20,317 bases of DNA from a virus: IMG/VR virus record IMGVR_UViG_3300006737_000300, positions 1 to 20,317 of that record. The stretch is one strand, 5' to 3'. Numbering within the stretch: position 1 is the stretch's first letter; each line of letters begins with the position of its first letter. The notes under the pieces were generated by a model. That model searched no databases. It was not told the DNA's origin and was given only the letters and a program-made list of their open reading frames with translations. Shown piece by piece: positions 1 to 17,251 of the stretch. The translations under genes were made by a program, and so were the position numbers.

Positions 1-2
1 AG

Positions 3-668
3 ACTGTGAAGGGTGATGGGTCAGAGTATGTGACAGGTATTATGTACCTAAAGCCTTTCAAGACTATTATTGAGGGCAAGACATTCAATGTGTGTGCATT
101 GGCTGAGAAAGCACAATGTCACAAGGGCTGTCTTGTATCTGCTGGGCGAGGTAAAATGTCCAGTGTTCAGCGTGGGCGTGAACGCAAAACCGTGTGGTAT
201 CATACTGACCGCATCGGGTTCATGGATGCGCTTATAAACGACATAACTATTTTCCGTCGTCGGCAACGCAAGAATGGTGTGCAACCATGTGTGAGGCTGA
301 ACGGCACAAGCGATATTCTGTGGGAGAAAGCTGGCATCATGGAACAATTCCCTGACGTACAGTTTTACGACTACACAAAAATTGTGGCTAGGGCTTACAA
401 GCCTATGCCTAGCAATTACCATCTGACGCTATCATATAGCGAGGCAGATGCTGACTACGCAGAACAGGTATTGACTGCGGTACGGGATACAGGTATCAAC
501 GCAGCAGTAGTGTTCCGCGACAAGATACCCGCCACGTTCAAGGGGTTGCGGGTGGTAGATGGTGACAAGGATGACCTACGATTCCTTGACCCGCAAGGTG
601 TGATTGTCGGGCTGAAGGCAAAGGGTGACGCCAAGCACGATGACACTGGATTTGTAATCGACGCATAA
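3..668 (+). CDS. Cysteine-containing phage protein, GP88/DUF7227-like (5' end outside window)
   Basis: The frame is open to the left edge of the window, so the N-terminus is probably missing; a GTG at 6 is the first possible start inside. Counting from that GTG, there are cysteines at residues 30, 38, 42 and 95, followed by an Arg/Lys-rich stretch (about 46-90). After that come alternating strand-like segments: CVRLNGTSDI, VQFYDYTKIV, HLTLSYSE, AAVVFRDK and IVGLKAKG. The Cys-rich start and barrel-like strand order resemble phage proteins of the gene product 88/DUF7227 type, whose function is unknown to me. The closing strands look like those of a TIM-barrel, but no CxxxCxxC radical-SAM motif is seen. 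A 12-base gap with AAGGAG separates it from the next gene. The family call is a recollection; that it is a real gene is much safer. Confidence 0.7.
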   Translation, partial: TVKGDGSEYVTGIMYLKPFKTIIEGKTFNVCALAEKAQCHKGCLVSAGRGKMSSVQRGRERKTVWYHTDRIGFMDALINDITIFRRRQRKNGVQPCVRLNGTSDILWEKAGIMEQFPDVQFYDYTKIVARAYKPMPSNYHLTLSYSEADADYAEQVLTAVRDTGINAAVVFRDKIPATFKGLRVVDGDKDDLRFLDPQGVIVGLKAKGDAKHDDTGFVIDA

Positions 669-680
669 GGAGATGACGCT

Positions 681-878
681 ATGACTACCACAACACACAC
701 GCTAAAGTTTGAGAAGCGTGACCATTATGGTGAGATTAGATTTTATCCCATGTGTCCGAAGGCACAGTTTCTGTGTAATCTTTCGGGCAGGAAGACATTC
801 CATGTGCAACAGTTGGTTGACATCAAGCGCAACTTGGGGTATAACGTAGAGATACTTGGGTTCCAACTGCCTGAGTAA
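681..878 (+). CDS. Small phage protein of unknown function (65 aa)
   Basis: The ATG at 681 follows AAGGAG (667-672) by eight bases, a strong ribosome site. The product is 65 residues, basic, with two cysteines (in FYPMCPK and QFLCNL), and has no membrane segment or domain I recognise. It lies in a run of same-strand small genes and was probably translated from the same message. Function unknown. Confidence 0.72.
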   Translation: MTTTTHTLKFEKRDHYGEIRFYPMCPKAQFLCNLSGRKTFHVQQLVDIKRNLGYNVEILGFQLPE

Positions 879-907
879 GTAGCAACACAACGAAAGGAGA
901 CTATGCT

Positions 908-1084
908 ATGTTCAAAAAGACTGTAAATGTGAAGGCAATCATTCGTAATCCTGTGGGCGTGGAGAATCTCCAGTTTCGTCGCACAACCGGACGTTACAAG
1001 CAGAAGGGTACGTTCTCTTCTAACAAGGGCTATCTGTCGGTGTCGCGTGATGCGGGCAACGGTCAGTTTGTAGCTCGTGCGTAA
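908..1084 (+). CDS. Small basic protein of unknown function (58 aa)
   Basis: ATG at 908 follows AAAGGAG (893-899) by eight bases. The 58-residue product is rich in Lys and Arg (start MFKKTVNVKAIIRN; then RRTTGRYKQKG) and ends QFVARA. It looks like a small nucleic-acid-binding or structural phage protein, but that is only from composition. An alternative ATG at 903 is in another frame and badly placed relative to the ribosome site. The 89-base gap after it holds a long hairpin. Confidence 0.65.
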   Translation: MFKKTVNVKAIIRNPVGVENLQFRRTTGRYKQKGTFSSNKGYLSVSRDAGNGQFVARA

Positions 1085-1111
1085 GATTACGCCAATCAAT
1101 CCGGTAGCCAA

Positions 1112-1145
1112 GGCACTCGCTCTGTCACGACGCAGGGCGAGTGTC
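1112..1145 (+). other. Long intergenic stem-loop (14 bp with three G-U pairs, 6-base loop)
   Basis: Bases 1112-1125 pair with 1132-1145 around the loop CACGAC. The core is CACTCGC paired with GCGAGTG; three pairs are G-U wobbles and there are no mismatches. It sits in the largest gap of the small-gene cluster, about 30 bases before the next start. No T-run follows on either strand, so it is not a standard terminator. It could be an RNA processing or stability element, or a protein-binding site. Confidence 0.6.
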
Positions 1146-1173
1146 GTACCACCAAAGAAAGGTAAGGGTAGCT

Positions 1174-1326
1174 ATGGCAAAGCAGAAAGACAAGAAGGCA
1201 AACGAGTTGACGTTCCAGAAAATTCCGGTAAAGAAAAAGGTTAAGGCGTTGCAAGATTGGCGGCGCAGCCGGAGGGCAAATCGTAAAGCAAAGCAACAGA
1301 TGCAGGAGGTATCTTACAATGGATAG
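1174..1326 (+). CDS. Very basic small protein (50 aa)
   Basis: The ATG at 1174 is preceded by TAAGGG and the common GCTATG context. An in-frame GTG at 1141 lies inside the stem-loop and is unlikely to be used. The product (MAKQKDKKANELTF...) is dominated by Lys and Arg, especially KKKVKALQDWRRSRRANRKAK in pieces across residues 20-40, so nucleic-acid binding is plausible. It overlaps the following gene by eight bases, which carries its ribosome site (GGAGG) inside this frame. Function unknown. Confidence 0.6.
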   Translation: MAKQKDKKANELTFQKIPVKKKVKALQDWRRSRRANRKAKQQMQEVSYNG

Positions 1327-1675
1327 GACAACAGCTAAGGCACTACGCAACAAACTCAACGCAATCTTTGCGGAGCATGGGATTGATGGGTATGAACTGG
1401 AAGTTGGCAACGCCAGCTATAACGATGTGGAAGTCACGTTCAAGTTGCTTGTGCGAGAGCAAGGGGCAAAGTCTAGGGAACAGCGCGACCTTGAAACTAT
1501 GGCGCGTCTGTCTGACCTCGATGCCAACAAGATTGGTGACGGCAAGTACACGCTGATTGGGTACAAGTCACGCGCCAGAAAGAACCCGTGGATTGTGAAA
1601 GATATGCGTTCCGGTGGTGAGTATGTCATCAATGACATGACAGCCAAGCGTTGGTTTGGAAAGGATGTAGCATGA
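1319..1675 (+). CDS. Conserved-type phage hypothetical protein (118 aa)
   Basis: ATG at 1319 follows GCAGGAGG. The protein begins MDRTTAKALRNKLNAIF and has a mixed alpha/beta pattern with a YTLIGYKSRARKNPWIV segment near the C-terminus. This resembles a small protein seen in many tailed phages (an RxTAKALRxxLxA start and an IVGxxPRSRKYPV-like end). I recall no function for it. It ends in an ATGA overlap with the next gene, indicating coupled translation. Confidence 0.75.
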   Translation: MDRTTAKALRNKLNAIFAEHGIDGYELEVGNASYNDVEVTFKLLVREQGAKSREQRDLETMARLSDLDANKIGDGKYTLIGYKSRARKNPWIVKDMRSGGEYVINDMTAKRWFGKDVA

Positions 1676-1896
1676 TTGTAAAATTATCAAACGACCAATG
1701 GGTACAGTTGTACTCTGAGATTTCTGAACAGATTATGGCTAATGGCCCATCAGGTATGAGTGAGTATCTGATTGAGGTAGAGAATGACGACGGCACAGTC
1801 ACAGAGATGTTCAGTGATGAGGGGCAAGATATATTCAACCACCACTGTGATGTGGCTTGTGCCATCCTTGAGGCTAATGGAGTGGAGAGCGAGTAA
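1672..1896 (+). CDS. Small acidic protein of unknown function (74 aa)
   Basis: I chose ATG 1672, which overlaps the upstream stop as ATGA and has AAGGA about eight bases before it; a TTG at 1651 would lengthen the product by seven residues but is less likely. The product (MIVKLSNDQWVQLYSEI...) is acidic, with a helical N-terminal half and two Cys near the end. It ends in a one-base overlap with the next start (TAATG). Function unknown. Confidence 0.68.
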   Translation: MIVKLSNDQWVQLYSEISEQIMANGPSGMSEYLIEVENDDGTVTEMFSDEGQDIFNHHCDVACAILEANGVESE

Positions 1897-2036
1897 TGAA
1901 TGAGGGTTTTGAGTTTGACGGTATGTGGATTACCGACAGAACTAAATCACCGTGTGGCAGGTTTGACTTGTCACCGGAACAAGCAGACGAACTGTATGGA
2001 AAGGATGATACAGATGAATGTACTATCACTGTTTGA
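1896..2036 (+). CDS. Acidic micro-gene overlapping the methyltransferase start (46 aa)
   Basis: A 46-residue frame starts at the ATG that shares a base with the upstream TAA. It encodes MNEGFEFDGMWITDRTKS..., ending DTDECTITV. Its last 23 bases overlap the methyltransferase start in a different frame, and its 3' part supplies that gene's ribosome site (GGAAAGGA). The tight junctions at both ends support translation. The acidic, Asp-rich product has no recognised domain. It could also be just a coupling leader for the methyltransferase. Confidence 0.55.
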   Translation: MNEGFEFDGMWITDRTKSPCGRFDLSPEQADELYGKDDTDECTITV

Positions 2037-2931
2037 CGGCATGTCTTGTGGGCAGATTGCGCTAGAGAAATCAGGATTCCAAGTGGGGAAATATTTTGCC
2101 AGCGAGATAGACAAGTACGCTATCAAGGTGGCGAAGGCTAACTACCCTGACATGGTACATCTAGGTGATGTGCGTGACGTGAAGGCAGATGACTTGCCAC
2201 AGATTGACCTACTGATTGGTGGCAGTCCATGCCAAGGCTTTAGCTTTGCTGGCAAGCGACTAAACTTTGATGACCCACGTTCCAAGTTGTTTTGGGAGTT
2301 TGTGAGGCTGTTGAAGGAGTTGCGGCCCAAGTATTTTCTCTTGGAAAATGTCAAGATGAAACAGCAGTCGATGGATGTAATCACTGAGGCACTAGGTGTC
2401 GAACCTATATTCATCAACAGTCGGCTAGTGTCAGCACAGAACAGGCAACGATACTACTGGACAAACATTCCAATGGACAAGTTACCTGATGACAAGGGCA
2501 TCATGCTCAAGGATGTGTTGGAGGATGGTCATGTAGACAGAGACAAGGCACATTGTATTGACGCTAATTATTTCAAGGGTGGCAATCTCAAGTCATACTT
2601 TGAGAAGCACAGACGACAGCTAGTATTTAGTAAGGATGGCCTATGCCATGTTGGTGATGCTGACATTCGTGGCAATGACAATGTTCGCAGGGTCTATCAT
2701 CCTGACGGCAAGGCACCATGTCTTACTACAATGGGCGGTGGACATCGTGAACCCAAGACACTGACAAGCGATACCACATGGCGCAAGCTAACACCACTTG
2801 AGTGTGAACGGTTGCAAACTGTGCCGGAAGGATACACAGCCCATGTCAGCAACACACAGCGATACAAGATGCTGGGCAATGGCTGGACTGTAGATGTTAT
2901 CACTCACATACTGAAAGGAATGGACACATGA
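2014..2931 (+). CDS. DNA (cytosine-5-)-methyltransferase
   Basis: This enzyme transfers a methyl group from S-adenosylmethionine to carbon 5 of cytosine in DNA. All main C5-methyltransferase motifs are visible in order: motif I (LSLFDGMSCGQ, residues 4-14), motif IV with catalytic Cys73 (GGSPCQGFSFAGKR), motif VI ENV (111-113), motif VIII (QNRQRYYWTN, 142-151), motif IX (APCLTTMGGGHRE, 234-246) and motif X (MLGNGWTVDVI, 287-297). The start at 2014 follows GGAAAGGA by eight bases and puts motif I at the usual distance from the N-terminus. In-frame ATGs at 1996 and 2005 are poorer. At 305 residues it is a compact, complete enzyme. No partner restriction enzyme is adjacent, so it is likely a solitary phage methyltransferase that protects phage DNA from host nucleases or alters expression. 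Target sequence cannot be read from the protein. Confidence 0.95.
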   Translation: MNVLSLFDGMSCGQIALEKSGFQVGKYFASEIDKYAIKVAKANYPDMVHLGDVRDVKADDLPQIDLLIGGSPCQGFSFAGKRLNFDDPRSKLFWEFVRLLKELRPKYFLLENVKMKQQSMDVITEALGVEPIFINSRLVSAQNRQRYYWTNIPMDKLPDDKGIMLKDVLEDGHVDRDKAHCIDANYFKGGNLKSYFEKHRRQLVFSKDGLCHVGDADIRGNDNVRRVYHPDGKAPCLTTMGGGHREPKTLTSDTTWRKLTPLECERLQTVPEGYTAHVSNTQRYKMLGNGWTVDVITHILKGMDT

Positions 2932-3110
2932 TACTAGACCCAGAAGATGACCCACGCCTTGTCAATGTACAACGACAGTTGGTTTCGCTGCGTCAACTTA
3001 TTGACACCTGGAATTGGGAAGACGAAGAAGGCAATCCTGCCACGAGGGCAGAGGCAAAACGCCTGACGCAGTTGTTTGCTGATGGCATACTATATGAACC
3101 TAAGTTTTAG
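2928..3110 (+). CDS. Small acidic protein of unknown function (60 aa)
   Basis: ATG 2928 overlaps the methyltransferase stop as ATGA. The product (MILDPEDDPRLVNVQRQLV...) is predicted largely helical, with heptad-like Leu/Val spacing over residues 10-26 and a second helix near residues 42-53. No domain is recognised. Coupling to the methyltransferase suggests co-expression but does not show a shared function. Confidence 0.65.
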   Translation: MILDPEDDPRLVNVQRQLVSLRQLIDTWNWEDEEGNPATRAEAKRLTQLFADGILYEPKF

Positions 3111-3126
3111 AGAAAGGAGACAAGCT

Positions 3127-3588
3127 ATGCCAAACTGGTGTCAGAATGTAATGTATATCCAGAACCACAACCCATCGCTGGTCAAGGCTATCAAAGAGGG
3201 CAACCTGTGCGAACACATTGTGCCGGAACCAAAGGATGATGAAGGTGAGCCAACGTCGGGCTGGTATGACTGGCGCGTAGAGAATTGGGGAACCAAGTGG
3301 GATATCAAATGCGAACACGTTGAAGTCGATGATGATGATGATACCTTAATCGTCAAGTTCGACACGGCATGGTCGCCACCAGATAAAGTGTTTGACGCCA
3401 TGCACAAAAAGGGTTATCTCTTTGAGGCATACTATGTCGAGTATGGCATGGAATACTACGGTTCATATGTGGATGGACGGGATACAACAGCCAGCTTTCC
3501 AGAGGGCAAGTTCTATCCATCAGATATGTACGACGACTACGAGGGATGGTCACATCCTAATCGCCACCTGCGCGAAAACTATTCATAG
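3127..3588 (+). CDS. YubB ferredoxin-like domain protein (DUF1281-type)
   Basis: The ATG at 3127 lies seven bases after AAAGGAG (3113-3119). The N-terminus MPNWCQNVMYI and the segment WYDWRVENWGTKWD (about residues 46-59) are characteristic of the YubB/DUF1281 family, found in plasmids and phages. The family adopts a ferredoxin-like fold; its biological role is not established to my knowledge. At 153 residues it is near the expected length. A GAT x5 run encodes five aspartates around residues 68-72. The C-terminal half is rich in Tyr and Asp. Confidence 0.78.
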   Translation: MPNWCQNVMYIQNHNPSLVKAIKEGNLCEHIVPEPKDDEGEPTSGWYDWRVENWGTKWDIKCEHVEVDDDDDTLIVKFDTAWSPPDKVFDAMHKKGYLFEAYYVEYGMEYYGSYVDGRDTTASFPEGKFYPSDMYDDYEGWSHPNRHLRENYS

Positions 3589-3602
3589 AAAGGAGAACAC
3601 CT

Positions 3603-4001
3603 ATGCGGCCTGATAAACAGAACCAGAAGAAGTTTGATTTCGATATGTCTTTCGGAGAGTGGGGCGAAGATACGTTCCTGCACATGATGGGCATGACACG
3701 CGACAAGTTTGAGATAAAGACTGAACGCAATGAGATGTGGACGAAGTGGGGCAACATCGCTGTGGAATACCAGTGCTTTGATAAACCATCCGGCATCAAT
3801 GCGACAGAGGCTGCGTACTGGGTGCAGAACCTAGCAGACAGGGACAATGATATGTATTGCACAATCATCTTCCCGACAGCCACCATGAAGAAAGTGCTTG
3901 ACAAGATGCAGCCTCGTCAGGTAAAAGGTGGTGACTACAACAAGTCGGAGATGTACCTTGTGTCATTGGCTGACCTGTTTTCTAAGAAAGCATACAAGTA
4001 G
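3603..4001 (+). CDS. PD-(D/E)XK nuclease-like protein (Holliday-junction-resolvase-like family)
   Basis: Start 3603 follows AAAGGAG by seven bases. Near the N-terminus it has a helix containing Glu (FGEWGEDTF, Glu22), then a strand with FEIKTE (Glu37-x-Lys39), then GNIAVEYQ (Glu55) and a conserved-looking SGINATEAAYW. This order (Glu, E-x-K, V-E) matches small phage PD-(D/E)XK nucleases. Those proteins read ...GNIFVEYE...SGIxxTEADYW, followed by an aliphatic strand, here YCTIIFPT, and GGDYNKSEMYLVSL. It may cut branched or foreign DNA; activity is inferred only. It precedes a cluster of membrane-type small proteins. Confidence 0.65.
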   Translation: MRPDKQNQKKFDFDMSFGEWGEDTFLHMMGMTRDKFEIKTERNEMWTKWGNIAVEYQCFDKPSGINATEAAYWVQNLADRDNDMYCTIIFPTATMKKVLDKMQPRQVKGGDYNKSEMYLVSLADLFSKKAYK

Positions 4002-4015
4002 AAAGGAGATACGAT

Positions 4016-4219
4016 ATGTTAGGATTGTTAGCGACTGTTGCGATTGCTATGTTTGCACATGACAACGCAGAGTTTATCACAGACATGAACGCCAAGCTGG
4101 AACAGGATTGCACGTTCACATATACAGGTAAGCAAGAGGTGCGACCTGATGTCCCACACATTGCTGTGGACAACAAGTACGTTTACTTCAGCATGGAACC
4201 CTGCCCGAAAGGAGAGTAG
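4016..4219 (+). CDS. Small protein with signal-like hydrophobic N-terminus (67 aa)
   Basis: ATG 4016 follows AAAGGAG by seven bases. Residues 1-14 (MLGLLATVAIAMFA) are hydrophobic, followed by a polar region with two cysteines (32 and 63). This could be a secreted or membrane-tethered protein with a periplasmic disulfide. The hydrophobic stretch is short and lacks an N-terminal positive charge, so a signal peptide is possible but not certain. Such small envelope proteins in phage early regions sometimes act in superinfection exclusion; that role is conjecture here. Confidence 0.62.
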   Translation: MLGLLATVAIAMFAHDNAEFITDMNAKLEQDCTFTYTGKQEVRPDVPHIAVDNKYVYFSMEPCPKGE

Positions 4220-4221
4220 AC

Positions 4222-4554
4222 ATGAATCTGATATTGAACACTACACACTATGATGCACCAAAGGAACACCTTGTCGAATCACTTGGCCTGTTGCCTCACT
4301 GGGTTGTCGAGTACAATATCCTGGGTGGCAAAGACCTTGTGCAATACATGACAGAACGCTATGGCTTTGGTCAGTTGTACAAGTTTGAAGGCACAGTCAC
4401 AGAGGATGGTTGTTGGCAGAGTCCACACGAAGATGACGAAGACCTAGAGTATGTGGGCAAGATGCAGACAAAGCATGGCACTGTGTACTTCTATCCATAT
4501 GCAATCACTGCGCTGCCGACTGACGATGGCTACTTTGTCACGAGGATGGACTGA
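4222..4554 (+). CDS. Acidic phage protein of unknown function (110 aa)
   Basis: ATG 4222 lies seven bases after AAAGGAG, which is itself inside the end of the previous gene. The product (MNLILNTTHYDAPKEHLVESL...) is soluble, with a helical first half and a strand-rich second half containing KHGTVYFYPYAI. It has an acidic patch EDDEDLE near residue 75. No family recognised. One base separates it from the next gene. Confidence 0.7.
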   Translation: MNLILNTTHYDAPKEHLVESLGLLPHWVVEYNILGGKDLVQYMTERYGFGQLYKFEGTVTEDGCWQSPHEDDEDLEYVGKMQTKHGTVYFYPYAITALPTDDGYFVTRMD

Positions 4555-4555
4555 C

Positions 4556-4705
4556 ATGGACGAGGAGATGTTATTCGACCATGACTGGGATGACAAGCAC
4601 ATCATAGACATTGAGTGGGACAATCCCAACCATGAAGCTGACACAGAAATGCTTATCAAGTGGGGGTTATATCAGCCCCCACGAAAGGAGAAAGAGGATG
4701 CGTAA
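4556..4705 (+). CDS. Small acidic protein (49 aa)
   Basis: ATG 4556 starts one base after the previous stop, with GAGGATGGAC upstream giving a weak ribosome site, so translation is probably coupled. The product (MDEEMLFDHDWDDKHI...) is strongly acidic at its N-terminus and ends with the basic PPRKEKEDA. It overlaps the next gene by eight bases and carries that gene's AAAGGAG. Function unknown. Confidence 0.58.
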   Translation: MDEEMLFDHDWDDKHIIDIEWDNPNHEADTEMLIKWGLYQPPRKEKEDA

Positions 4706-4979
4706 TACCTGGAACATGATTATGGATTGGCGTTACAATCCCTTGTCACACATACCCGACAACAACACACGGCACATGGTGATGCAGGTGCTGGCATGGA
4801 TGTGGTGCATAATCTTTAGCATGTGGGTGGGCAGCGTCGTTGCTTTTGGCATCAGTGCCATAGCCCATGCCATGTTGATTGCTGGCATTTTCATCACGGC
4901 AGGTGTATTTGAAACAGCCAAGCGTAGGCCGCAGTATTTCGGTGGGCTTGGCAGAGGCAATGGAGGTGAGCATGAGTAA
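4698..4979 (+). CDS. Small membrane protein with two predicted transmembrane helices (93 aa)
   Basis: ATG 4698 follows AAAGGAG (4684-4690) by seven bases. Two hydrophobic segments at about residues 27-48 and 50-71 (rich in Met, Trp, Ile, Ala) are joined by a very short turn, and a basic, Gly-rich tail (KRRPQYFGGLGRGNGGEHE) follows. The size and helical hairpin would fit a holin or an inner-membrane exclusion protein. It lies far from any visible lysis gene and next to other small membrane proteins, so the role is open. Confidence 0.68.
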   Translation: MRNTWNMIMDWRYNPLSHIPDNNTRHMVMQVLAWMWCIIFSMWVGSVVAFGISAIAHAMLIAGIFITAGVFETAKRRPQYFGGLGRGNGGEHE

Positions 4980-5115
4980 GCTATGGCGAAAGGCCAAGCA
5001 TTACTACCTCACGCATGACGGCATTGAGATGCTTTTGTTCGCATGTATATGGGGGTTCTTGGGCTGGATGCTATACCATGCTGGCATTGGAATCATAGAA
5101 AGGATTATCAGATGA
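4972..5115 (+). CDS. Small single-pass membrane protein (47 aa)
   Basis: Starts at ATG 4972 inside the end of the previous gene (eight-base overlap), with TGGAGG as ribosome site. The N-terminus is basic (MSKLWRKAKHYY) and residues about 18-39 form one hydrophobic helix (IEMLLFACIWGFLGWMLYHAG). It ends in an ATGA overlap with the next gene. Coupling to the two-helix protein suggests they may work together in the membrane. Function unknown. Confidence 0.63.
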   Translation: MSKLWRKAKHYYLTHDGIEMLLFACIWGFLGWMLYHAGIGIIERIIR

Positions 5116-5294
5116 AAGACATACGAGTAGAAATGACAGACGAAACAGAAGCTGGTCTGCAAAAAAAGGTTGACTTATATTTCAAGGGGTGGCATCCTCT
5201 TGGATACGGAACAAGGCTGGTTCGTCCAGTCAAGTACGACGAAATACGGCAGTGTTGGGTGGCCGTGATTACCCGACAGACATCTTGTGATTGA
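5112..5294 (+). CDS. Small soluble protein of unknown function (60 aa)
   Basis: ATG 5112 overlaps the previous stop as ATGA. The product (MKDIRVEMTDETEAGLQKKV...) reads as an alpha/beta mini-protein, with a central KGWHPLGYGTRLVRPVKYD stretch and a strand QCWVAVITR near the end. That pattern (a repeated-sounding GW.P.G....VKYD...W.AV) recalls DUF1737-like small proteins, but I would not assign it. The run of six A at 5161 lies within a Lys-Lys pair and does not break the frame. Confidence 0.6.
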   Translation: MKDIRVEMTDETEAGLQKKVDLYFKGWHPLGYGTRLVRPVKYDEIRQCWVAVITRQTSCD

Positions 5295-5307
5295 GAGGAG
5301 ACTAGAT

Positions 5308-5553
5308 ATGAGTGAGACATTGAATGAGTGGGAACTGAAGCGTGAAGCAGCAACCGAATGTTGGAAGGCTATGACGCCTACGCAGCAGGATGCTATCCTG
5401 ACTTTGCTCAAGGCATGGGTTCCGGTTCGTACTAGGGTCAGCGAGTTTTGCACCCTTGACTATGATGAACTGCGCCTAGTAGATGAAGCATGGTGGGGTA
5501 TCAAACATGCTATTGTCGATAAGGATGTTGAAGTCAAAGAGTGGGATATGTAG
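5308..5553 (+). CDS. Small protein of unknown function (81 aa)
   Basis: ATG 5308 follows AGAGGAG (5294-5300) by seven bases; an in-frame GTG at 5287 lies before the ribosome site and is unlikely. The product (MSETLNEWELKREAATECW...) is mainly helical and acidic with several Trp. It does not show a clear helix-turn-helix. Because it precedes the integrase it could be a recombination directionality factor, but nothing in the sequence shows that. Confidence 0.66.
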   Translation: MSETLNEWELKREAATECWKAMTPTQQDAILTLLKAWVPVRTRVSEFCTLDYDELRLVDEAWWGIKHAIVDKDVEVKEWDM

Positions 5554-5555
5554 AA

Positions 5556-5615
5556 ATGGATATCATCATCGCATTCTTTGGACTCATCCTGATGATTGCA
5601 GTGTTTGGGTTCTAG
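5556..5615 (+). CDS. Possible 19-residue membrane micropeptide / leader of the integrase
   Basis: A 20-codon frame starts two bases after the previous stop and ends two bases before the integrase ATG. It encodes MDIIIAFFGLILMIAVFGF, an almost uninterrupted hydrophobic helix. No strong ribosome site precedes it. It may be a true membrane micropeptide or only a translated linker that lets ribosomes re-initiate at the integrase, which also lacks its own ribosome site. Evidence is positional and compositional only. Confidence 0.4.
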   Translation: MDIIIAFFGLILMIAVFGF

Positions 5616-5617
5616 CT

Positions 5618-6490
5618 ATGAAAACATTTAGGGACTTGTCTGACGATTACAAAAAATCGTTAGAATACAGAGAGTTGCGCCTAGAAACTAAAGTGCAGTA
5701 TGATTATCATATCACGATACTGGTGCAGCATTTTGGCAGAACATCTCTCAGTTTGATTGCACCATTGTATGCGAAGAAGGCATACGACACATGGTGTGAG
5801 AGAGGTGTGTCATTCGCAAACCATCTGATGTCAGTAGCCAGGATTATTTTTAATCATGGTGTGAGGATGGAGTACGTCAGCACAAATCCCTTTGACAAGG
5901 TGAAGAAAAGGAATACACAATCTCGTAAGGTTGTCTGGACTTCAGAAGATGTTCAACAGTTTTTGTCTGTCGCATATAGCGACTTTAATACAAGGAACAT
6001 AGGACTGATTGCACAGATGGCCTACGAGTGGTGTCAGCGTCTAGGTGACATGCGACTCTTGACATGGGATGCTATACATTTTGATAAGATGACTGTGCAT
6101 ATTGAGCAGTCAAAGCGTAGGGCAGAAGTTTTCCTACCAATATCAGAAGAGTTGTGCGACATGTTGAAGCAGCAACAGGAGGACTTTGGCTTTCAAGAGT
6201 ATGTGGCACCTAGACCCTACCCTATCGACGGCGTGTACAAACCCTATAGCATGTATAAGCTACCGAAACATGCTAGGAAGGTAATGGACGATGCTGGTTT
6301 GTCCAGTGAGTTGCAGCTGCGTGACCTGCGTAGAACAGGCACAACTGAAATGGTTGATGCAGGTGTAAGTATAGGACAAATCATGTCGGTTACAGGACAC
6401 GCTAACCCACAATCGGTCAAGCCATACATGAAGCACACATACGACAGTGCAAATTATGCCTTGACAAAGCGTCGGAATCATGGTAGTTAA
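5618..6490 (+). CDS. int: Tyrosine recombinase / phage integrase
   Basis: This enzyme should cut and rejoin DNA at attachment sites to insert or excise the phage genome. The N-terminal part (about 1-100) matches a core-binding SAM-like domain. The catalytic domain shows Arg141 (CQRLGDMRLLTW), Lys166 in a beta-hairpin (QSKRRAE), the box II sequence LRDLRRTG (Arg235, Arg238), TGH (His261) and nucleophile Tyr270 (KPYMK), nine residues after the His, as usual. Box II has Arg where His is commonest (RxxR instead of HxxR), a substitution tolerated in some members. Length, 290 residues, is short but typical. ATG 5618 gives the natural N-terminus; longer in-frame starts would overlap the previous gene. 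It lacks a ribosome site, so translation may be coupled to the frame just upstream. No repressor, excisionase or attachment site was recognised nearby. Confidence 0.93.
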   Translation: MKTFRDLSDDYKKSLEYRELRLETKVQYDYHITILVQHFGRTSLSLIAPLYAKKAYDTWCERGVSFANHLMSVARIIFNHGVRMEYVSTNPFDKVKKRNTQSRKVVWTSEDVQQFLSVAYSDFNTRNIGLIAQMAYEWCQRLGDMRLLTWDAIHFDKMTVHIEQSKRRAEVFLPISEELCDMLKQQQEDFGFQEYVAPRPYPIDGVYKPYSMYKLPKHARKVMDDAGLSSELQLRDLRRTGTTEMVDAGVSIGQIMSVTGHANPQSVKPYMKHTYDSANYALTKRRNHGS

Positions 6491-6522
6491 ACATTAGATG
6501 CGGCAAAGGAAGGATACATAAT

Positions 6523-7284
6523 ATGATAGTAACATTAAATGATGTACTAAATGATTATGATGTCAGGTATGGTGAAACTATTCGTACTAATTGTCCATAC
6601 TGTAAGGGCTACAATACTTTCTCTGTGACCAACATGGGTGGCAGCATCGTATGGAATTGTTATAAGGCATCATGCAAAGCTAGTGGTGCGAAGGGTGTCA
6701 TGTGGTCGATAGATGATATCGAACTTATGCGCCAGGAAAAGAAGGAAGAGAATTTTGTGCTACCAGAATACATCGTCCCTTGCAATCAACTTGTAGGAGA
6801 CTGGGCAGACAGCTACGAGTTGGATGCCATTGAGTTGGGATTGATGTATGATGTGCGCGAAGAACGCGCTGTGTTTCTGGTGAGGCACGATAACAAGATT
6901 GTTGACGCCACAGGTAGGGCGTTGACAAGGCGACAGCCAAAGTGGAAAAGGTATGGGTCTAGCAGTCTCCCCTATATCTGTGGCACTGGTTCTGTCGCTG
7001 TCGTGGTGGAGGACTGTGTTAGTGCTGCTGTTGTTGGCAATGTCAAAAGTTTTGTAGGGGTGGCGTTGCTTGGCACGAGTTTACAACAAACTCACAAACA
7101 GTATCTGGCACAGTTCTCCACTGTCTTAGTTGCTCTTGACCCTGATGCGATTGCTAAGTCGGCAACCCATGCACAGGCTCTGGAGAACTATGTAAGCACA
7201 GTTAAGATACTTAACCTACAGCAAGATTTGAAATACCGGAACGATAGAGATATGAAACTACTAGGAGACATGCAATGGAAATGA
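6523..7284 (+). CDS. DNA primase (zinc ribbon plus Toprim domain)
   Basis: Primase lays down RNA primers for DNA synthesis. The N-terminal zinc ribbon has CPYC (Cys24, Cys27) and CYKASC (Cys46, Cys51). The Toprim core shows a glutamate in VVVEDCVSA (Glu163) and the DPD pair (Asp206, Asp208) in VLVALDPDA. At 253 residues it corresponds to the primase half of T7 gp4, here separate from the helicase. ATG 6523 follows AAAGGAAGG. It overlaps the helicase gene by ten bases, so the two are probably made together. Confidence 0.88.
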   Translation: MIVTLNDVLNDYDVRYGETIRTNCPYCKGYNTFSVTNMGGSIVWNCYKASCKASGAKGVMWSIDDIELMRQEKKEENFVLPEYIVPCNQLVGDWADSYELDAIELGLMYDVREERAVFLVRHDNKIVDATGRALTRRQPKWKRYGSSSLPYICGTGSVAVVVEDCVSAAVVGNVKSFVGVALLGTSLQQTHKQYLAQFSTVLVALDPDAIAKSATHAQALENYVSTVKILNLQQDLKYRNDRDMKLLGDMQWK

Positions 7285-8498
7285 CGATGATTCGCTCCTT
7301 GATGGACGAGGAGTTCTACAAAGAACATAGGGTGAACAAATGTCCAGACGAGTTGTTCACTGATGAGGGCGTAAAGATTATACGCTGCATCGACAAGATG
7401 ATGGAGCAATACAAAAGGTCTGTAACACCAGAGGAAGTGTCGATGTATTTCTTGGCACACACTCCGGCATTGACTACAGCACAGGAGCATTCCTATCAGG
7501 AGTTGTTCCACAAGCTGGGTAGTGAGAGGGCTATGGGTAACGACGTAGCAGCAGATGTGGTTTCTCGCCTGTTCCAGCGTCATATAGGCAAGGTAATCGT
7601 CAACATGGGGGTAAACTACTCCAATGGTGATGAAGCCACTATGGAGCCTTTGAGAGAGTTGCTTGCCAAGTACAACGATGACTTTACCCCCAACCTTAAC
7701 CTTGAGTGGGAAGACATCAGCATTGATTCAATACTGGATAGTTATTCCTTGGAGAGTCGATGGAAGTTTAACTTGCCGACGTTGGCACAAGAGATTAGGG
7801 GTGTCAATGCTGGTCAGTTAATTGAGATTGGTGCTAGGCCGAACACAGGTAAGACATCTTTCCATGCCAGTATGATTGCTGGCCCTCGTGGGTTTGCACA
7901 TCAGGGTGCCAAGTGCATCATCCTGTGTAACGAGGAGAAGGCATTGCGTGTGGCAGAGAGATACCTCACTGCTGCAACACATATGACGATGGAAGAAATA
8001 TCCAGGGATAAGGAGAAAGCGCACAGTCTGTATGCTCCTGTTCGTAATAACATTGAGGTAAAGGATTCAACAGGCAAGAACATGGCGTGGGTAGAGAGTG
8101 TTGTCAAAAGCTATCAGCCTGACATACTTGTACTAGACATGGGTGATAAGTTTGCTACGATGCATGGATACAATAGACAAGATGAGGCATTGAAAGCAAA
8201 CGTCATTTATGCTAGAGAGATAGGCAAGCAGTATGGTTGTGCTATATTCTACATGTCACAGTTGTCTGCTGAAGCAGAGGGTAAGACAGTTCTGAACCAG
8301 AGTATGATGGAAGGGTCAAAGACAGGCAAGGCAGCAGAGGCAGACCTGATGATACTGATTGCAGCCAACCCACTTATCGAAGGGCAGAACAAGCAAGACC
8401 CACAGCGTCACCTGAATATTGTGAAGAACAAGTTGACAGGATGGCATGGGCGACTACATTGTAATTTGGATAATGTTTATGGGAGATATGAAGTATGA
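7275..8498 (+). CDS. Replicative DNA helicase (DnaB / T7 gp4 helicase type)
   Basis: This is a RecA-fold, ring-type helicase that should unwind the phage fork. Walker A is GARPNTGKT at residues 186-194; Walker B ends in Asp288 (ILVLDMGDK). A downstream YMSQLSAEAEG (Gln329 sensor) and GSKTGKAAEADLMI follow the DnaB-family order. The first about 135 residues resemble the helical N-terminal/linker region. ATG 7275 follows TAGGAGA. It overlaps the primase gene and ends in ATGA with the next gene. Length 407 is normal for a stand-alone phage helicase. Confidence 0.93.
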   Translation: MEMTMIRSLMDEEFYKEHRVNKCPDELFTDEGVKIIRCIDKMMEQYKRSVTPEEVSMYFLAHTPALTTAQEHSYQELFHKLGSERAMGNDVAADVVSRLFQRHIGKVIVNMGVNYSNGDEATMEPLRELLAKYNDDFTPNLNLEWEDISIDSILDSYSLESRWKFNLPTLAQEIRGVNAGQLIEIGARPNTGKTSFHASMIAGPRGFAHQGAKCIILCNEEKALRVAERYLTAATHMTMEEISRDKEKAHSLYAPVRNNIEVKDSTGKNMAWVESVVKSYQPDILVLDMGDKFATMHGYNRQDEALKANVIYAREIGKQYGCAIFYMSQLSAEAEGKTVLNQSMMEGSKTGKAAEADLMILIAANPLIEGQNKQDPQRHLNIVKNKLTGWHGRLHCNLDNVYGRYEV

Positions 8499-8854
8499 CA
8501 AGGATGTACACAAAAGAAACACTAGACGATTTAGATGAAGACATCGAATACTACAAAGAAAAATCTGTAGAGTTGCAGAGGTCTTGTTGGCATAAGGATA
8601 ATTACAGTAACTACGCAGACAGAAATGTTCTCCGGCTCAAGAAGCTAAGAAAACTACTAGAACTAAATCTTGAAGTCGAGACATTTGGACAACCAAACTT
8701 TGGCATGGTTTTAGTCAACAGAAAGTTTGTAGTTTGTCTACTTGACAACAACTGGAGGGTTGTAAATAAAAATGTGTGGTACAAACACAAGGATGACTTG
8801 AACCACTTTGTAGAAAAATACATCAAAGGAGACAATAATGAAGATAACACTTGA
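8495..8854 (+). CDS. Unknown protein inserted between helicase and polymerase (119 aa)
   Basis: ATGA overlap with the helicase and a 17-base overlap with polA place it firmly in the replication operon. The first 60 residues are strongly charged and helical, coiled-coil-like (LDEDIEYYKEKSVELQ; RLKKLRKLLELNLE). The second half is beta-rich (FGMVLVNRKFVVCLLDNNWRVV). No family recognised. By hand count, 8521-8820 is about 36% G+C, well below the flanking helicase and polA, which hints at a different origin or recent arrival. Confidence 0.78.
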   Translation: MTRMYTKETLDDLDEDIEYYKEKSVELQRSCWHKDNYSNYADRNVLRLKKLRKLLELNLEVETFGQPNFGMVLVNRKFVVCLLDNNWRVVNKNVWYKHKDDLNHFVEKYIKGDNNEDNT

Positions 8855-10880
8855 TGTAGAAAACACTGTGACAAAGCGTGATGGTAAGATGCACCTCGAC
8901 CCATTTGAGCCAGAGAATACGCTGGTAATGGTAGGTATGCTGACTGACCAAGGGCAGTGCTTGACGTTCCCATTTGACCACGCCGACCATCCTAGTCAGG
9001 ATGATTACTATGAACGTGTACAGATGCTTCTTGACGAGGCCACTGTGCTTATCATGCATAACGCAGCACACGACTTGTTGTGGCTGTGGGAGTCTGGCTT
9101 CAAGTATGATGGCCCTGTGTTTGATACGATGCTGGCAGAGTATGTCATGCAGCGTGGGCAGAAAGAACCACTGTCACTTGAGGCATGTGCAGAGCGTTAC
9201 GAGTTGGATACCAAGAAGCAGGATACCTTGAAAGAATATTTCAAGCAGGGCTTTAGCACTCGTGATATACCATACAATGAATTAACTGAGTATCTTGTGG
9301 CTGACCTTGAGGCTACGCAGCAACTTGCTGACAAGCTAATGTATCGTCTGAACACACCAAAAGATAGTGGGCTGATGGGTACAGTTGACCTGACGAATCA
9401 GGTGGCTGTGTGTCTGGCGCGTATCTATCAGCGTGGTCTGACTGTGGACATGGATGCGCTTGAGGATGTTAGGTCTGAGTTCCAACAGGAGAAGGATATC
9501 CTGACGTACAACCTGACAGCACAGGTGCGTGAGTTGATGGGGGATACGCCAGTTAATCTTAATAGTCCAGAGCAACTGTCATGGGTTGTTTACAGTCGTA
9601 AGCCAAAGAACAAAACTGTATGGGCCAATGCCATTCATCCTTACATGAAGGACAAAGACTTCAAGGATATCGTAAGGAGTGAGACAGAGGTTGTCTACAA
9701 GACACACGCTATCAAGTGCAAACCATGTAATGGCACAGGCTATATTCGTAAAACGAAAAAGAACGGCGACCCATATAGTAAACCAAACAAGTGCGTAGAC
9801 TGTGCAGCGTCAGGCTTTTTGTATCAGCGAACAAAGCAAGTAGCCGGTCTAAAGTTTACTGCACCTAATTCTAAGTGGGCTAGTGCCAATGGTTTCTCAA
9901 CAAGCAAGGGTAACTTGGGTGTACTCAAGGGCATAGCTACGCAGAACAATATGCAGGTAGCCAAGGATTTTCTCAATGATGTCAGTAGGTTAAGTGCATT
10001 GGATACATATTTATCATCCTTTGTTGATGGCATCAAGACGCACACAAAGTATGATGGTAAGCTACATGTTCGTTTGTTGCAGCATCGCACGGCCACAGGT
10101 CGCTTCAGTGGTGCTGACCCTAACATGCAGAACATGCCTCGTGGTGGTACATTCCCTGTCAAGCGAGTGTTTGTATCACGTTTTGATAATGGTAAAATTG
10201 TGGAAGCAGACTTCGCACAGCTTGAGTTTAGGGTAGCTGCTTTCCTGTCACAAGATGGAGTTGCAATTGAAGAAGTATCTACAGGATTTGATGTACATGC
10301 ATATACCAGTCAAGTTATTACTGATGCTGGTCAACCGACAAGTCGCCAAGAAGCAAAGGCGCATACGTTCGCGCCTCTTTATGGAGCAACGGGCTTTGGG
10401 AGAACGCCAGCGGAAGCAGAGTATTACACACACTTCACGGAGAAATATAAAGGCATCGCACATTGGCATTCCCGACTGGCTAAAGAGGCTTTAGAAAACA
10501 AGAAGGTTGTTACGCCTTCCGGCAGGGAGTTTTCTTTTCCTGATGTACAGAGACTGGAGAGTGGGCGTGTGTCACACTTCACGCAACTAAAAAACTATCC
10601 TGTGCAGTCATTGGCTACAGCAGATATTGTCCCTGTTGCTTTGCTACATATTGACACACTATTACACTACGCCAAGTCTTGCATTGTAAACAGTGTGCAT
10701 GATAGTATTGTGATTGATATGCATCCGATGGAAGAAAGGCTTGTGTTACAGGCTATTGACACAACCAATAAAGAATTACCTGGACTAATAGCTAGTAGGT
10801 GGGGCATCGACTTCAATGTGCCTCTTGTATTAGAAGCAAAGATTGGTCCGAATTGGCTTGACACGAAAGACGTAATGTGA
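8838..10880 (+). CDS. polA: Family A DNA polymerase with 3'-5' exonuclease and DnaJ-like zinc insertion
   Basis: This is the replicative polymerase. The exonuclease domain has Exo I D-x-E (Asp6, Glu8), Exo II N-x3-D (Asn75, Asp79) and Exo III Y-x3-D (Tyr152, Asp156). The polymerase domain has motif A with Asp458 (EADFAQLEFR), motif B RQEAKAHTFAPLYG (Arg503, Lys507, Phe511, Tyr515) and motif C with His621-Asp622 (NSVHDSI). Phe511 lines up with E. coli Pol I Phe762. Between the domains, residues 294-326 carry CKPCNGTG and CVDCAASG, a CxxCxGxG-like pair resembling the DnaJ cysteine-rich domain. This architecture is known from HMO-2011-type phages (recollection). It lacks a 5'-3' exonuclease domain. 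ATG 8838 follows AAAGGAG. The 680-residue length suits a T7-like phage polymerase. The end of the gene contains a promoter. Confidence 0.96.
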   Translation: MKITLDVENTVTKRDGKMHLDPFEPENTLVMVGMLTDQGQCLTFPFDHADHPSQDDYYERVQMLLDEATVLIMHNAAHDLLWLWESGFKYDGPVFDTMLAEYVMQRGQKEPLSLEACAERYELDTKKQDTLKEYFKQGFSTRDIPYNELTEYLVADLEATQQLADKLMYRLNTPKDSGLMGTVDLTNQVAVCLARIYQRGLTVDMDALEDVRSEFQQEKDILTYNLTAQVRELMGDTPVNLNSPEQLSWVVYSRKPKNKTVWANAIHPYMKDKDFKDIVRSETEVVYKTHAIKCKPCNGTGYIRKTKKNGDPYSKPNKCVDCAASGFLYQRTKQVAGLKFTAPNSKWASANGFSTSKGNLGVLKGIATQNNMQVAKDFLNDVSRLSALDTYLSSFVDGIKTHTKYDGKLHVRLLQHRTATGRFSGADPNMQNMPRGGTFPVKRVFVSRFDNGKIVEADFAQLEFRVAAFLSQDGVAIEEVSTGFDVHAYTSQVITDAGQPTSRQEAKAHTFAPLYGATGFGRTPAEAEYYTHFTEKYKGIAHWHSRLAKEALENKKVVTPSGREFSFPDVQRLESGRVSHFTQLKNYPVQSLATADIVPVALLHIDTLLHYAKSCIVNSVHDSIVIDMHPMEERLVLQAIDTTNKELPGLIASRWGIDFNVPLVLEAKIGPNWLDTKDVM

Positions 10881-10886
10881 TATAAC
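10858..10886 (+). promoter_or_regulatory. Sigma70-type promoter upstream of the SSB-like gene
   Basis: A perfect -35 TTGACA (10858-10863) is followed after exactly 17 bases by TATAAC (10881-10886), five of six matches to the -10 consensus. It overlaps the last codons of polA and would start a transcript near 10893, about 30 bases before the next ATG. It points to host RNA polymerase use and a separate boost for the ssDNA-binding protein and following genes. Confidence 0.75.
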
Positions 10887-10921
10887 TCGTCTTTATTTTT
10901 CACAGAAAGGAGTCAACAAAT

Positions 10922-11788
10922 ATGAGTGAACTATCAACTATTGATACCAACAATTACGCAGCTATGGCGCAGATGATGGGCATGGCTTATGACACAGGCG
11001 AGAAGAAGTCTAGTCTGGCACGGCTGCGTATTAACAAGAAGGCTATCATGGGGGATGCCGACGTAAATGGTAAAACCGTGAAGATGGAAGTTGTATCTGC
11101 TGGTGCGTTGGCTTTGCAGAACACCGACAATCAAGTCATCTATGCTGACAAGGTTGTACTGCGTCCCTTTGTTCAACGCTTTATGTATCAGCGATACGAT
11201 AGCAATGCCAACAACTATCAGAAAACTGTCATGGCAAATAACCTAGACATTGACCTGAAAGATACTGGTGGCACGTTCAACTGTGGAAAACCTGGGGGGT
11301 ACATTCAAGACTTTGATGCGTTGCCAGATGGCACAAAGGAACTTATTCGTCAGATACGTAGGGTTCGCGTTGTGTTTGGTACTGCATCTATGTCCGGTGT
11401 AACCAAGGAAGGTGACGCACAAGAGGTTACTGATGTGCCTTGCATTTGGGAAGTCGATAGCAAGGAAGGCTTCAAGAATGTGGGTCAGGCTTTTAATAAG
11501 CTGGGCCAGATGAATCGTCTTCCCCCACAACATAACATGACTGTTGAAACAGAAGGTCGTGAACTTCCGACTGGTTCTACATTCTATGTGCCTGTGGTTG
11601 ATATTGATATGAAGAATAATCTTGAGGTTACACCAGAGGACCAAGGTGTATTCAAAGAGTTTATGACATATATCGAAAACTTCAATACGTGGGTCTTGTC
11701 TGAATGGGATAAGGCTGCGCATGGTGAGCCGGAAGAAGATGAAAGCGTTGTGGAAGAGTTCATCACGGTAACTGTAGACGATGAATAG
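10922..11788 (+). CDS. Probable single-stranded DNA-binding protein
   Basis: Expected to coat ssDNA during replication and recombination. I base this on position (between polA and a recombination-type nuclease, where T7-like phages carry gp2.5-like genes), on the basic, beta-rich middle, and on an acidic C-terminal tail: roughly half of the last 20 residues are Asp or Glu (EPEEDESVVEEF...VDDE). This tail is typical of SSBs, which use it to recruit replication partners. There is no clear OB-fold signature in the sequence alone, so the family is not certain. It has its own promoter and a good AAAGGAG site. The last eight bases overlap the next gene. Confidence 0.7.
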   Translation: MSELSTIDTNNYAAMAQMMGMAYDTGEKKSSLARLRINKKAIMGDADVNGKTVKMEVVSAGALALQNTDNQVIYADKVVLRPFVQRFMYQRYDSNANNYQKTVMANNLDIDLKDTGGTFNCGKPGGYIQDFDALPDGTKELIRQIRRVRVVFGTASMSGVTKEGDAQEVTDVPCIWEVDSKEGFKNVGQAFNKLGQMNRLPPQHNMTVETEGRELPTGSTFYVPVVDIDMKNNLEVTPEDQGVFKEFMTYIENFNTWVLSEWDKAAHGEPEEDESVVEEFITVTVDDE

Positions 11789-12647
11789 TCTTAATCATCC
11801 TGCTGAACTCGCTATCCACAGTTATCTTGAGGGTGTCGTAAATAATAAAGCGACATTCTCAAGTGAAAATGCTGCACAAGTTGCAGAGGATGTTAGGGAA
11901 GCTGTCCTACGTCAGTTCAACAGGACTGAACCAAAGGGCTTTCGCCTTCGTATGTCTAATGTGGGTAGGCCATACTGTCAGCTATGGTTTGAAAAGAACA
12001 AGCCAGAGACAGCTATGCCTCGCCCCACGACATTCGTTATGAACATGATGCTTGGTGACATCATTGAGGCAGTCTTTAAAGGTATATTGAGAGAGGCAAG
12101 AGTTGAGTATCAAGACTCTGAACGTGTGACATTACCTTTGAAGAATGCAGACATTGATGGCACATATGACTTAATTATTGACGAGGCAGTTGACGACGTT
12201 AAGTCTGCGTCTGACTGGTCATACAAGCACAAGTTCCAATCATACGAGGTGTTGAAGGACAATGATTCCTTTGGTTACGTAGGGCAGCTTGCTGGCTATG
12301 CAAAAGCCACTGACAAAAAACCTGGGGGCTGGTGGGTAATTAACAAAGCCAATGGTAAATTTAAATACGTGCCAGCAGATATAGACATCGACATAGAGAT
12401 TCAGAAGATTGAGAATCTTGTGGAGAAGTTAGAAGAGAATAAGTTTGAGCGTTGCTATGACGCACAGGCTGAAACATTTAGGGGTAAAGAGACAGGCAAT
12501 AAAGTCTTGTGCAAAGAATGTTCATTCTGCGACTACAGATTTTCTTGCTGGCCTGACTTGCAGGAACTACCTGCTGTAAAATCTCAAGCCAAAGAACCAA
12601 AGATGGTTAATTATGTAGAACTAGCAGAGGAGTATATAGATGGATGA
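11781..12647 (+). CDS. PD-(D/E)XK exonuclease, Cas4/RecB-like with probable Fe-S cluster
   Basis: The RecB-type nuclease core is visible. Asp126 sits in DIDGTYD, followed by Asp139-Val-Lys141 (DDVKSAS) and the Gln169-x3-Tyr173 pair (GQLAGYA). A lone Cys66 (GRPYCQLW) before the core and a Cys cluster after it (Cys244, 247, 250, 256, in CKECSFCDYRFSC) match the four-cysteine Fe-S arrangement of Cas4 and AddB nucleases. It probably resects DNA ends in phage recombination or degrades host DNA, taking the place of the T7 gp6 exonuclease. ATG 11781 overlaps the SSB-like gene by eight bases. Confidence 0.85.
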   Translation: MNSLNHPAELAIHSYLEGVVNNKATFSSENAAQVAEDVREAVLRQFNRTEPKGFRLRMSNVGRPYCQLWFEKNKPETAMPRPTTFVMNMMLGDIIEAVFKGILREARVEYQDSERVTLPLKNADIDGTYDLIIDEAVDDVKSASDWSYKHKFQSYEVLKDNDSFGYVGQLAGYAKATDKKPGGWWVINKANGKFKYVPADIDIDIEIQKIENLVEKLEENKFERCYDAQAETFRGKETGNKVLCKECSFCDYRFSCWPDLQELPAVKSQAKEPKMVNYVELAEEYIDG

Positions 12648-12855
12648 ACGACTGGAACTTGACGCTTTACTGGATGAAATCAAAGATACTGAACAGAAAC
12701 TTAACAACTTGCGTAAGGAATATCGTGAACGAAAAACTGCTGGGGTTCGTGCAGCTATTGAGGCACGTAATGAAGCAGACAAAGTTCTTCGGGAAGAGTT
12801 GAGGGCTATTGGGTATCGTGAACCCCTTGACTTCTGGCGTGGTCGCGCACTGTAG
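12640..12855 (+). CDS. Small coiled-coil protein (71 aa)
   Basis: Starts at ATG 12640 (eight-base overlap with the nuclease; AGAGGAG upstream). Nearly the whole product is a charged helix with heptad-like hydrophobics (LELDALLDEIKDTEQKLNNL, then IEARNEADKVLREELRAI), so it likely self-associates or binds a partner. The last bases overlap the endonuclease start by one. A role as accessory to one of the two nucleases is guesswork from position. Confidence 0.72.
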   Translation: MDERLELDALLDEIKDTEQKLNNLRKEYRERKTAGVRAAIEARNEADKVLREELRAIGYREPLDFWRGRAL

Positions 12856-13979: not shown

Positions 13980-14127
13980 GATTTACCTTTCGTTGGATAT
14001 AGACCCCGAAGAATATACTATGCCAGCAGACGAAAACCCAACGGAAGAAATACAGGAAAGTTTAGAAGATTACTTTCACGAATTACCTGGCATGGAAATT
14101 AGACATATGAAAATAAACATGGAGTGA
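13969..14127 (+). CDS. Small acidic protein (52 aa)
   Basis: ATG 13969 overlaps the DUF3310 end by eleven bases and the frame ends three bases before the RNR start. The product (MRVKIYLSLDIDPEEY...) has a strand, an acidic helical middle and a basic strand-like end (MEIRHMKINME), a compact beta-alpha-beta pattern. It is also a spacer that brings the RNR ribosome site (GGAG) close to its ATG. Function unknown. Confidence 0.65.
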   Translation: MRVKIYLSLDIDPEEYTMPADENPTEEIQESLEDYFHELPGMEIRHMKINME

Positions 14128-14130
14128 GAC

Positions 14131-17221: not shown

Positions 17222-17227
17222 AAGAGA

Positions 17228-17250: not shown

Positions 17251-17251
17251 C

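Follow-up and report, generated by a model that had tools for sequence, protein, structure and literature searches.

The integrase (Int) of the window, a term used here for the whole 20,317-base virus record that was analyzed, is a catalytically complete tyrosine recombinase that consists of core-binding and catalytic domains only. On balance, it is probably an active arm-less integrase of a subgroup I-like phage, which serves rare or transient integration at a site outside tRNA genes and not classical lysogeny. The complete active site, the purifying selection on the gene, its place before the primase gene, the exchange of its alleles, and the lack of a recognizable tRNA-type attachment site (attP) in the window were all computed directly. 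Int is probably made during phage replication, because its gene shares an operon with those of primase, helicase, and polymerase, and would recombine the phage genome with a host site other than the 3′ part of a tRNA gene. Since neither a repressor nor an excisionase is visible, integration would be rare and probably transient, similar to that of T7-like cyanophages, and would not lead to stable lysogeny. An exchange of the int allele would change the site that is used. A precedent for integration without lysogeny is described in PMC8776855.

The gene order of the window matches that of HMO-2011-type podoviruses, which is characterized by int upstream of an ordered replication module: int is followed by primase, helicase, family A polymerase, exonuclease, and endonuclease I, then by ribonucleotide reductase, MazG, and a structural gene on the other strand (Table 1). 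Polymerases of this type are recognized by a DnaJ-like insert holding two CXXCXGXG motifs; the window polymerase has CKPCNGTG at residue 294, which fits exactly, and CVDCAASG at residue 319, which lacks the first glycine. Int shares 55% identity with HMO-2011 gp09 over the whole protein and 27 to 56% with those encoded in the next ten records by rank. IMG/VR holds at least 598 related stretches, of which 80 were kept for comparison. The window phage is an HMO-2011-type podovirus, and int is thus an already known kind of gene. The phage appears closest to subgroup I, a placement made by similarity to HMO-2011 and CRP-1 alone. In HMO-2011 (gp09) and subgroup I, int takes the same place before primase, helicase, and polymerase, but the alleles differ from that of the window; the Ints of CRP-1 and CRP-345 are extended at the N terminus, whereas the HMO-2011 Int lacks this extension like the window Int. 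What is added here is the arm-less make-up of Int, the contrast in tRNA-type attP sites, the purifying selection together with the allele exchange, and a junction element and micro-ORF on either side of the gene.

Table 1. Features of the window and tRNA-end attP sites of related phages
Feature	Position	Strand	Remarks
Small ORF	5309..5553	+	lies ahead of int and marks the left border of the exchanged stretch; without Pfam or PHROG family
Micro-ORF	5556..5615	+	19-aa hydrophobic peptide MDIIIAFFGLILMIAVFGF; directly before int
int	5618..6490	+	arm-less tyrosine recombinase, 290 aa; ATG 5618 to TAA 6490; R141, K166, R235-x-x-R238, H261, Y270
Junction element	6491..6513	+	ACATTAGATGCGGCAAAGGAAGG; from int stop toward primase
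DNA primase	6523..7284	+	phrog_47, E 1.8e-14; homologue of HMO-2011 gp10
DnaB-type replicative helicase	7275..8498	+	PF03796, E 2.8e-11
Family A DNA polymerase with DnaJ-like CXXC insert	8838..10880	+	PF00476, E 2.8e-47
Structural gene	17252-20317	-	window ends inside this first structural gene
tRNA-end attP, CRP-3	L009 3171-3212		gap before primase, not beside int
tRNA-end attP, CRP-235	L003 2998-3035		gap before primase, not beside int
tRNA-end attP, CRP-212	L010 2811-2852		gap before primase, not beside int
tRNA-end attP, CRP-738	L011 2952-2978		other tRNA, closest to tRNA-Asn in the library; gap before primase

The preliminary description had found int to be co-directional with the replication genes, which is confirmed: all 36 ORFs taken as genes between positions 3 and 17221 lie on the plus strand, and the longest gap in the ORF list measures 68 bases. 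Promoter and terminator scans gave results near the shuffled background. Of 104 distinct pairs, 99 have ≤70 nt between the int stop and the primase match; longer gaps occur in L094 (152 nt), CRP-2 (668 nt), CRP-603 (779 nt), CRP-738 (1494 nt), and CRP-3 (1868 nt). This recurrence and the number of related stretches in IMG/VR exceed what chance would give. Fifty-eight new loci were selected by their primase; 55 have an int match upstream, and three are too short to tell. According to PMC9038755, int is present in most members of subgroups I and III and in one of subgroup II. Ahead of int, the window also encodes a C-5 cytosine DNA methyltransferase (positions 1900-2931), which is matched in some relatives and not in others.

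Int matches PF00589 (E 4.4e-18) and a PHROG integrase family (E 3.3e-39) and harbors the R…K…R…H/W…Y active site of tyrosine recombinases within the PF00589 fold. The five catalytic residues and the RxxR form of box II that had been read from the sequence earlier (Arg141, Lys166, Arg238, His261, Tyr270) were all found again. In 95 distinct proteins, window included, which were drawn from 142 loci with a match covering ≥85% of the query, R141, R238, H261, and Y270 occur throughout and K166 is present in 94, the single departure being K166T in one relative. Box II of the window Int reads RDLR (R235-D-L-R238) and therefore departs from the canonical HxxR consensus in its first residue. Lambda Int carries HxxR. 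Position 235 is taken by Ser in 66 of the 95 proteins, by Arg in 15, by Met in eight, by Ala in six, and by His in none. The CRP-3 integrase, too, has RDLR, and integration of CRP-3 at tRNA-Met(CAT) is reported to have been verified via hybrid reads and PCR (PMC6918029). Other recombinases, including the active IntSSV1, have also been published with a box II that lacks His (PMC8371274, PMC8138268); the variants include KxxR of the SSV1 type and YxxR of the pNOB8 type (PMC8371274), and the first His of box II is weak in IntBPP-1 (PMC8138268). With such variants, the HxxR consensus is typical and not obligatory. Because a box II without His is normal in the family and occurs in CRP-3 and the active IntSSV1, RxxR is no argument against activity. 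RxxR as a defect was ruled out on the same grounds, and the earlier suspicion that it marks something unusual is not supported. One relative, L234, has an int (2984-3856) that is broken by an in-frame TAA.

Int has the properties of a simple (arm-less) tyrosine recombinase. The N-terminal arm-binding domain is absent, as the profile alignment to full-length lambda Int begins at residue 78. The AlphaFold model (mean pLDDT 84.5, pTM 0.61, weaker past residue 230) finds its best PDB match in lambda Int 75-356 (Z 18.1, rmsd 3.9, 257 aligned), and the starts of the structural and profile alignments lie at lambda residues 73 to 78. A stretch of about 75 amino acids at the N terminus is matched in six of 92 Ints (CRP-1, CRP-345, MW202701, CRP-235, CRP-3, and CRP-212), 87 of the 92 having >230 nt upstream. 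It is unmatched in the window, HMO-2011, CRP-2, CRP-207, CRP-603, CRP-738, and the 80 IMG/VR relatives, though the CRP-738 Int is long too. The N-terminal stretches of CRP-1, MW202701, and CRP-235 have no counterpart in the DNA upstream of the window int, and Pfam recognizes no arm domain in the stretch. In the related L094 Int, which has an extra N terminus, three strands and a helix are predicted there with a pLDDT near 90, the pattern that PMC8138268 gives for arm domains; an alignment of the L094 model with full-length lambda Int spans 365 columns (E 2.1e-13). In a tree of 45 Ints, in which deep branches are weak and long branches were flagged, the short HMO-2011 Int groups beside the long CRP-1-type Ints (support 95/92), and the N-terminal stretch has therefore changed at least two times. 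Arm-less phage integrases are a minority in the survey presented in PMC8138268 (27 phages versus 410).

Int is under purifying selection with a dN/dS of about 0.1. Between the window and seven relatives (L206, L209-L212, L215, and L216), the int dS amounts to 0.79-0.91, where NG86 values near 0.9 are rough, and dN/dS to 0.10-0.11; five of these have a primase dS of 0.08-0.13 and the other two one of 0.28, and the helicase dS is 0.31-0.67. Four other relatives (L205, L208, L213, and L214; L213 equals L214 over the int region tested) share the window allele with an int dS of 0.05-0.11, a primase dS of 0.08-0.25, and a helicase dS of 0.13-0.46. Given the higher helicase dS, the relatives are near-identical in primase and not throughout. 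The clearest contrast is that of L214 and L206, which have equal helicase distances to the window (dS 0.46 and 0.49) and opposite int alleles (dS 0.11 and 0.91). Int alleles can differ between phages with near-identical primase, which is an exchange between related phages. Along the DNA, identity declines directly past the upstream ORF (5500 bin), and most of the seven relatives have regained 98-99% by the 6500 bin. Within the protein, residues 1-96, the N-terminal third, have a dN of 0.18-0.19 compared to 0.042-0.047 for the rest. In other lineages, identity rises again over roughly the final 200 nt of int, which are conserved in any case. A second dip, to 65-79% identity, lies inside the helicase gene (8000-8099) in six of nine close relatives and is another exchanged patch.

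The same pattern appears in a pair test of 104 nonidentical loci with int, primase, and helicase (130 before identical ones were dropped), in which pairs are not independent and loci were picked by similarity to the window. Among 143 pairs with primase identity >95%, int falls below 90% in 34 and below 80% in five, and helicase falls below 90% in none. The reverse test, with 153 pairs of helicase identity >95%, gives 25 pairs in which int is below 90% and 13 in which primase is, so that primase is exchanged as well. Five of 23 primase clusters hold at least two int alleles and none holds two helicase alleles; in one of the five, CRP-2/CRP-603, the divergence covers several genes, and some pairs carry other insertions upstream. 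L247 and the L072/L088 clade are 96% identical in int and 78% in primase; the DNA of L247 agrees with that of L088 at 98-100%, starting about 70 nt ahead of int and reaching 300 nt into the gene. This clade is a likely donor. Together with the diverged DNA-binding third, allele exchange suggests selection on site choice, and its repetition would fit site specificity better than a fixed role in replication. Counted against rare integration by an active Int are the exchanges that are not unique to int, as patches of primase and helicase are exchanged too, and the in-frame stop in the int of L234.

Two small features adjoin int. Among 74 distinct upstream regions, 31 have a hydrophobic micro-ORF (hydropathy ≥1.9) that stops at the int start or shortly ahead of it. 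Within the window's group, its type switches together with the int allele, and the other allele is preceded by a different micro-peptide. It is kept in relatives with many silent changes, with a pN/pS of 0.08 for five 18-aa peptides, 0.52 for five 19-aa peptides, and 0.46 for ten of the other type. The DNA element TGCCGCAAAGGAAGG is located at the int-primase junction. In 160 loci (1.66 Mb, some contigs present twice), 72 of its 75 matches with ≤2 mismatches lie at this junction, and one of the three others (L014) is a junction too, in which primase went unscored; among the matches with 3 mismatches, 32 lie at the junction compared to 41 elsewhere. With ≤4 mismatches, the element occurs in 71 of 97 distinct junctions and in 58 of 2000 random segments, counts that are descriptive and no independent test, as the motif was derived from these junctions. 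The element begins past the int stop in the window and lies within the last int codons in other relatives, always in one frame as far as checked; in the window, the same frame continues after the stop. Its conservation may come partly from a lost protein tail, and its 3′ part is probably the ribosome-binding site of primase. Five long Ints occur without the element, yet 21 short ones do so too, and a tie between arm domain and element is suggestive only. As an attB core, the element was rejected, with matches in one of 385 genomes compared to three in the reversed control and hence no excess.

No repressor or excisionase family was matched in the 34 of 36 window ORFs scanned (PHROGs, Pfam, or both), the scan excluding 5556-5615, 12640-12855, and the minus-strand gene, which agrees with the preliminary description for these 20 kb. 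The annotated features of HMO-2011 name neither, and a scan of 20 HMO-2011 hypothetical proteins gave no match to either. Divergent forms could escape such family scans, and a repressor or attP may be located beyond the 20 kb, as the window is only part of a genome. A search of host genomes for prophages with such an integrase had been proposed; none that is clear was obtained from a peptide-pattern scan of 84,980 genomes or from 385 genomes of the class of a Rhodobiaceae-titled metagenome-assembled genome (MAG). The conditional lysogeny that had been suggested is a possible reading. The pattern scan gave 25 matches, six of which encode a relative. These six loci, inspected up to 10 kb on either side, amount to four distinct ones, all with phage replication genes after int and without tRNA genes. 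In the profile search, 112 of the 385 class genomes were matched at E ≤0.001, the close family being represented by just the already known MAG contig (434 bits compared to ≤114 elsewhere); a tRNA gene stands beside int in four of the six best loci checked. The same two HMO-2011-type contigs, with the same names, are found in a Flavobacteriales MAG and in a Neomarinimicrobiota MAG (L093-L096), and this occurrence in different phyla suggests a misbinned free phage.

Attachment sites were searched by BLAST of 77 tRNAs (35 anticodons) against 102 phage sequences (100 distinct) and by a pattern scan. Four sequences are positive, CRP-3, CRP-235, CRP-212, and CRP-738; the other 98 reach at best 31.5 bits compared to up to 33.4 in the reversed-sequence control. 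A tRNA-type attP was found neither in the 20 kb window nor in the whole HMO-2011 and CRP-1 genomes, the search covering the first 15-17 kb of CRP-2, CRP-207, CRP-345, and CRP-603 and parts of the IMG/VR relatives. The earlier statement that no attachment site is recognizable in the 20 kb is therefore borne out, and the comparison with tRNA genes that had been advised for the vicinity of int gave clear sites in the four CRP-3-like phages and none in the window. The window, a fragment, shows no attP matching a tRNA 3′ part, the mark of tRNA-integrating temperate phages, and holds no tRNA genes. Two published CRP-3 junction primers map to L009 2829-2849 and 3642-3662, and a tRNA 3′ part lies between them in the gap ahead of primase; the remaining two have no match in the sequences compared. 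The CRP-3 site region matches 363 of the 385 class genomes at E ≤1 (best 3.3e-16), so a tRNA site is easy to see. PMC6918029 reports verified integration for CRP-3 only, with the sites for CRP-1 and CRP-2 not identified there. PMC9038755 describes four cultivated subgroup III phages with two Roseobacter strains as hosts, to which CRP-3, CRP-235, CRP-212, and CRP-738 would correspond by host.

Other routes to a site were followed in parallel. The Rfam tRNA model is useless as an attP finder and reported nothing even in L009, which holds the CRP-3 site. The region 5520-5640 was dismissed as attP, since its matches in 29 of the 385 genomes at E ≤0.1 (best 7.9e-4) are spread and close to chance. 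Window positions 1-17300 match two of the 385 genomes, G002 with its phage contig and G306 with a stretch of 197 bases, in a weak test for longer host matches that scored just two candidates per genome. The latter match joins window 4722-4918, a small hydrophobic ORF, to a 25 kb contig (G306:C17) at 73% DNA identity; this is possibly another phage contig. The longest exact matches listed between the window and ten other phage sequences fall within ORFs taken as genes. An attP/attB pair was not found for any subgroup I phage searched, nor was an integrated copy in the host genomes scanned, and both negatives also count against rare integration by an active Int.

A classical temperate phage that forms stable lysogens, with a repressor, excisionase, and attP that are divergent or lie outside the 20 kb, is a possible but doubtful alternative. 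It draws on CRP-3, a phage of the same group that integrates at tRNA-Met (PMC6918029), on the tRNA-end sites ahead of primase in all four CRP-3-like phages, and on PMC9038755, which calls int-bearing members likely temperate. However, the complete HMO-2011 and CRP-1 genomes are without a tRNA match, neither the HMO-2011 annotation nor its 20 hypothetical proteins offers a repressor or excisionase, the loci recovered from the 84,980 genomes are all phage-like, and the class genomes contribute just the contig known before. That int is a decaying, unused relic is very improbable: the stop in L234, the K166T replacement, and the missing attP would fit it, but the gene is under purifying selection, the active site is complete in 94 of the 95 distinct proteins, and the alleles that replace int are intact as well.

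The other use raised in the preliminary description could be an internal one: while the phage DNA replicates, Int would recombine it, at the junction element for instance, and resolve dimers or concatemers. We regard this as quite improbable, even though int is joined to the replication operon, the element is nearly confined to the junction and shows no excess of host matches, and simple, arm-less recombinases act mostly in chromosome maintenance according to PMC8138268. In 26 of the 97 distinct junctions, the element is missing or has diverged; it also overlaps the likely ribosome-binding site of primase and is identical across both int alleles of the window's group. Moreover, PMC9038755 describes subgroups IV-X as having no int, so int is dispensable for this replication system in general. 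A reading in which the replication operon of subgroup I starts with an exchangeable specificity cassette, composed of the micro-ORF and the arm-less int, is also unlikely; the sites of the cassette would switch by allele exchange, and it would serve transient, repressor-free integration outside tRNA genes or recombination at the phage's own int-primase junction while the DNA is replicated.

Rare integration by an active arm-less Int can be set against known systems. The CRP-3 integrase belongs to the same recombinase family (33.5% identity to the window Int over 85% of the query) and shares RDLR but differs by its longer N terminus and by an int-primase gap of about 1.8 kb that holds the tRNA-Met attP. 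The four CRP-3-like phages combine an int apart from primase with a tRNA attP, whereas in subgroup I int adjoins primase and no tRNA attP was found; with the allele swaps, this contrast points to phage-host junctions outside tRNA genes, compared across phages that differ in int, as the place to look. The T7-like cyanophages S-TIP37 and P-SSP7 are likewise marine and carry int, and no repressor was found in them as reported in PMC8776855; their attP, in contrast, matches host tRNA-Leu, and they belong to a different phage family. They show lytic dynamics in the same report. Lambda integrase, the best structural and profile match, possesses the arm-binding domain that the window Int lacks. The integrase of mycobacteriophage Brujita resembles the window Int in having core-binding and catalytic domains only (PMC8138268). 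Compared by structure only, it fits the model worse than lambda Int 75-356 (5vfz, Z 11.4, rmsd 15.4, 243 aligned), which domain orientation may partly explain.
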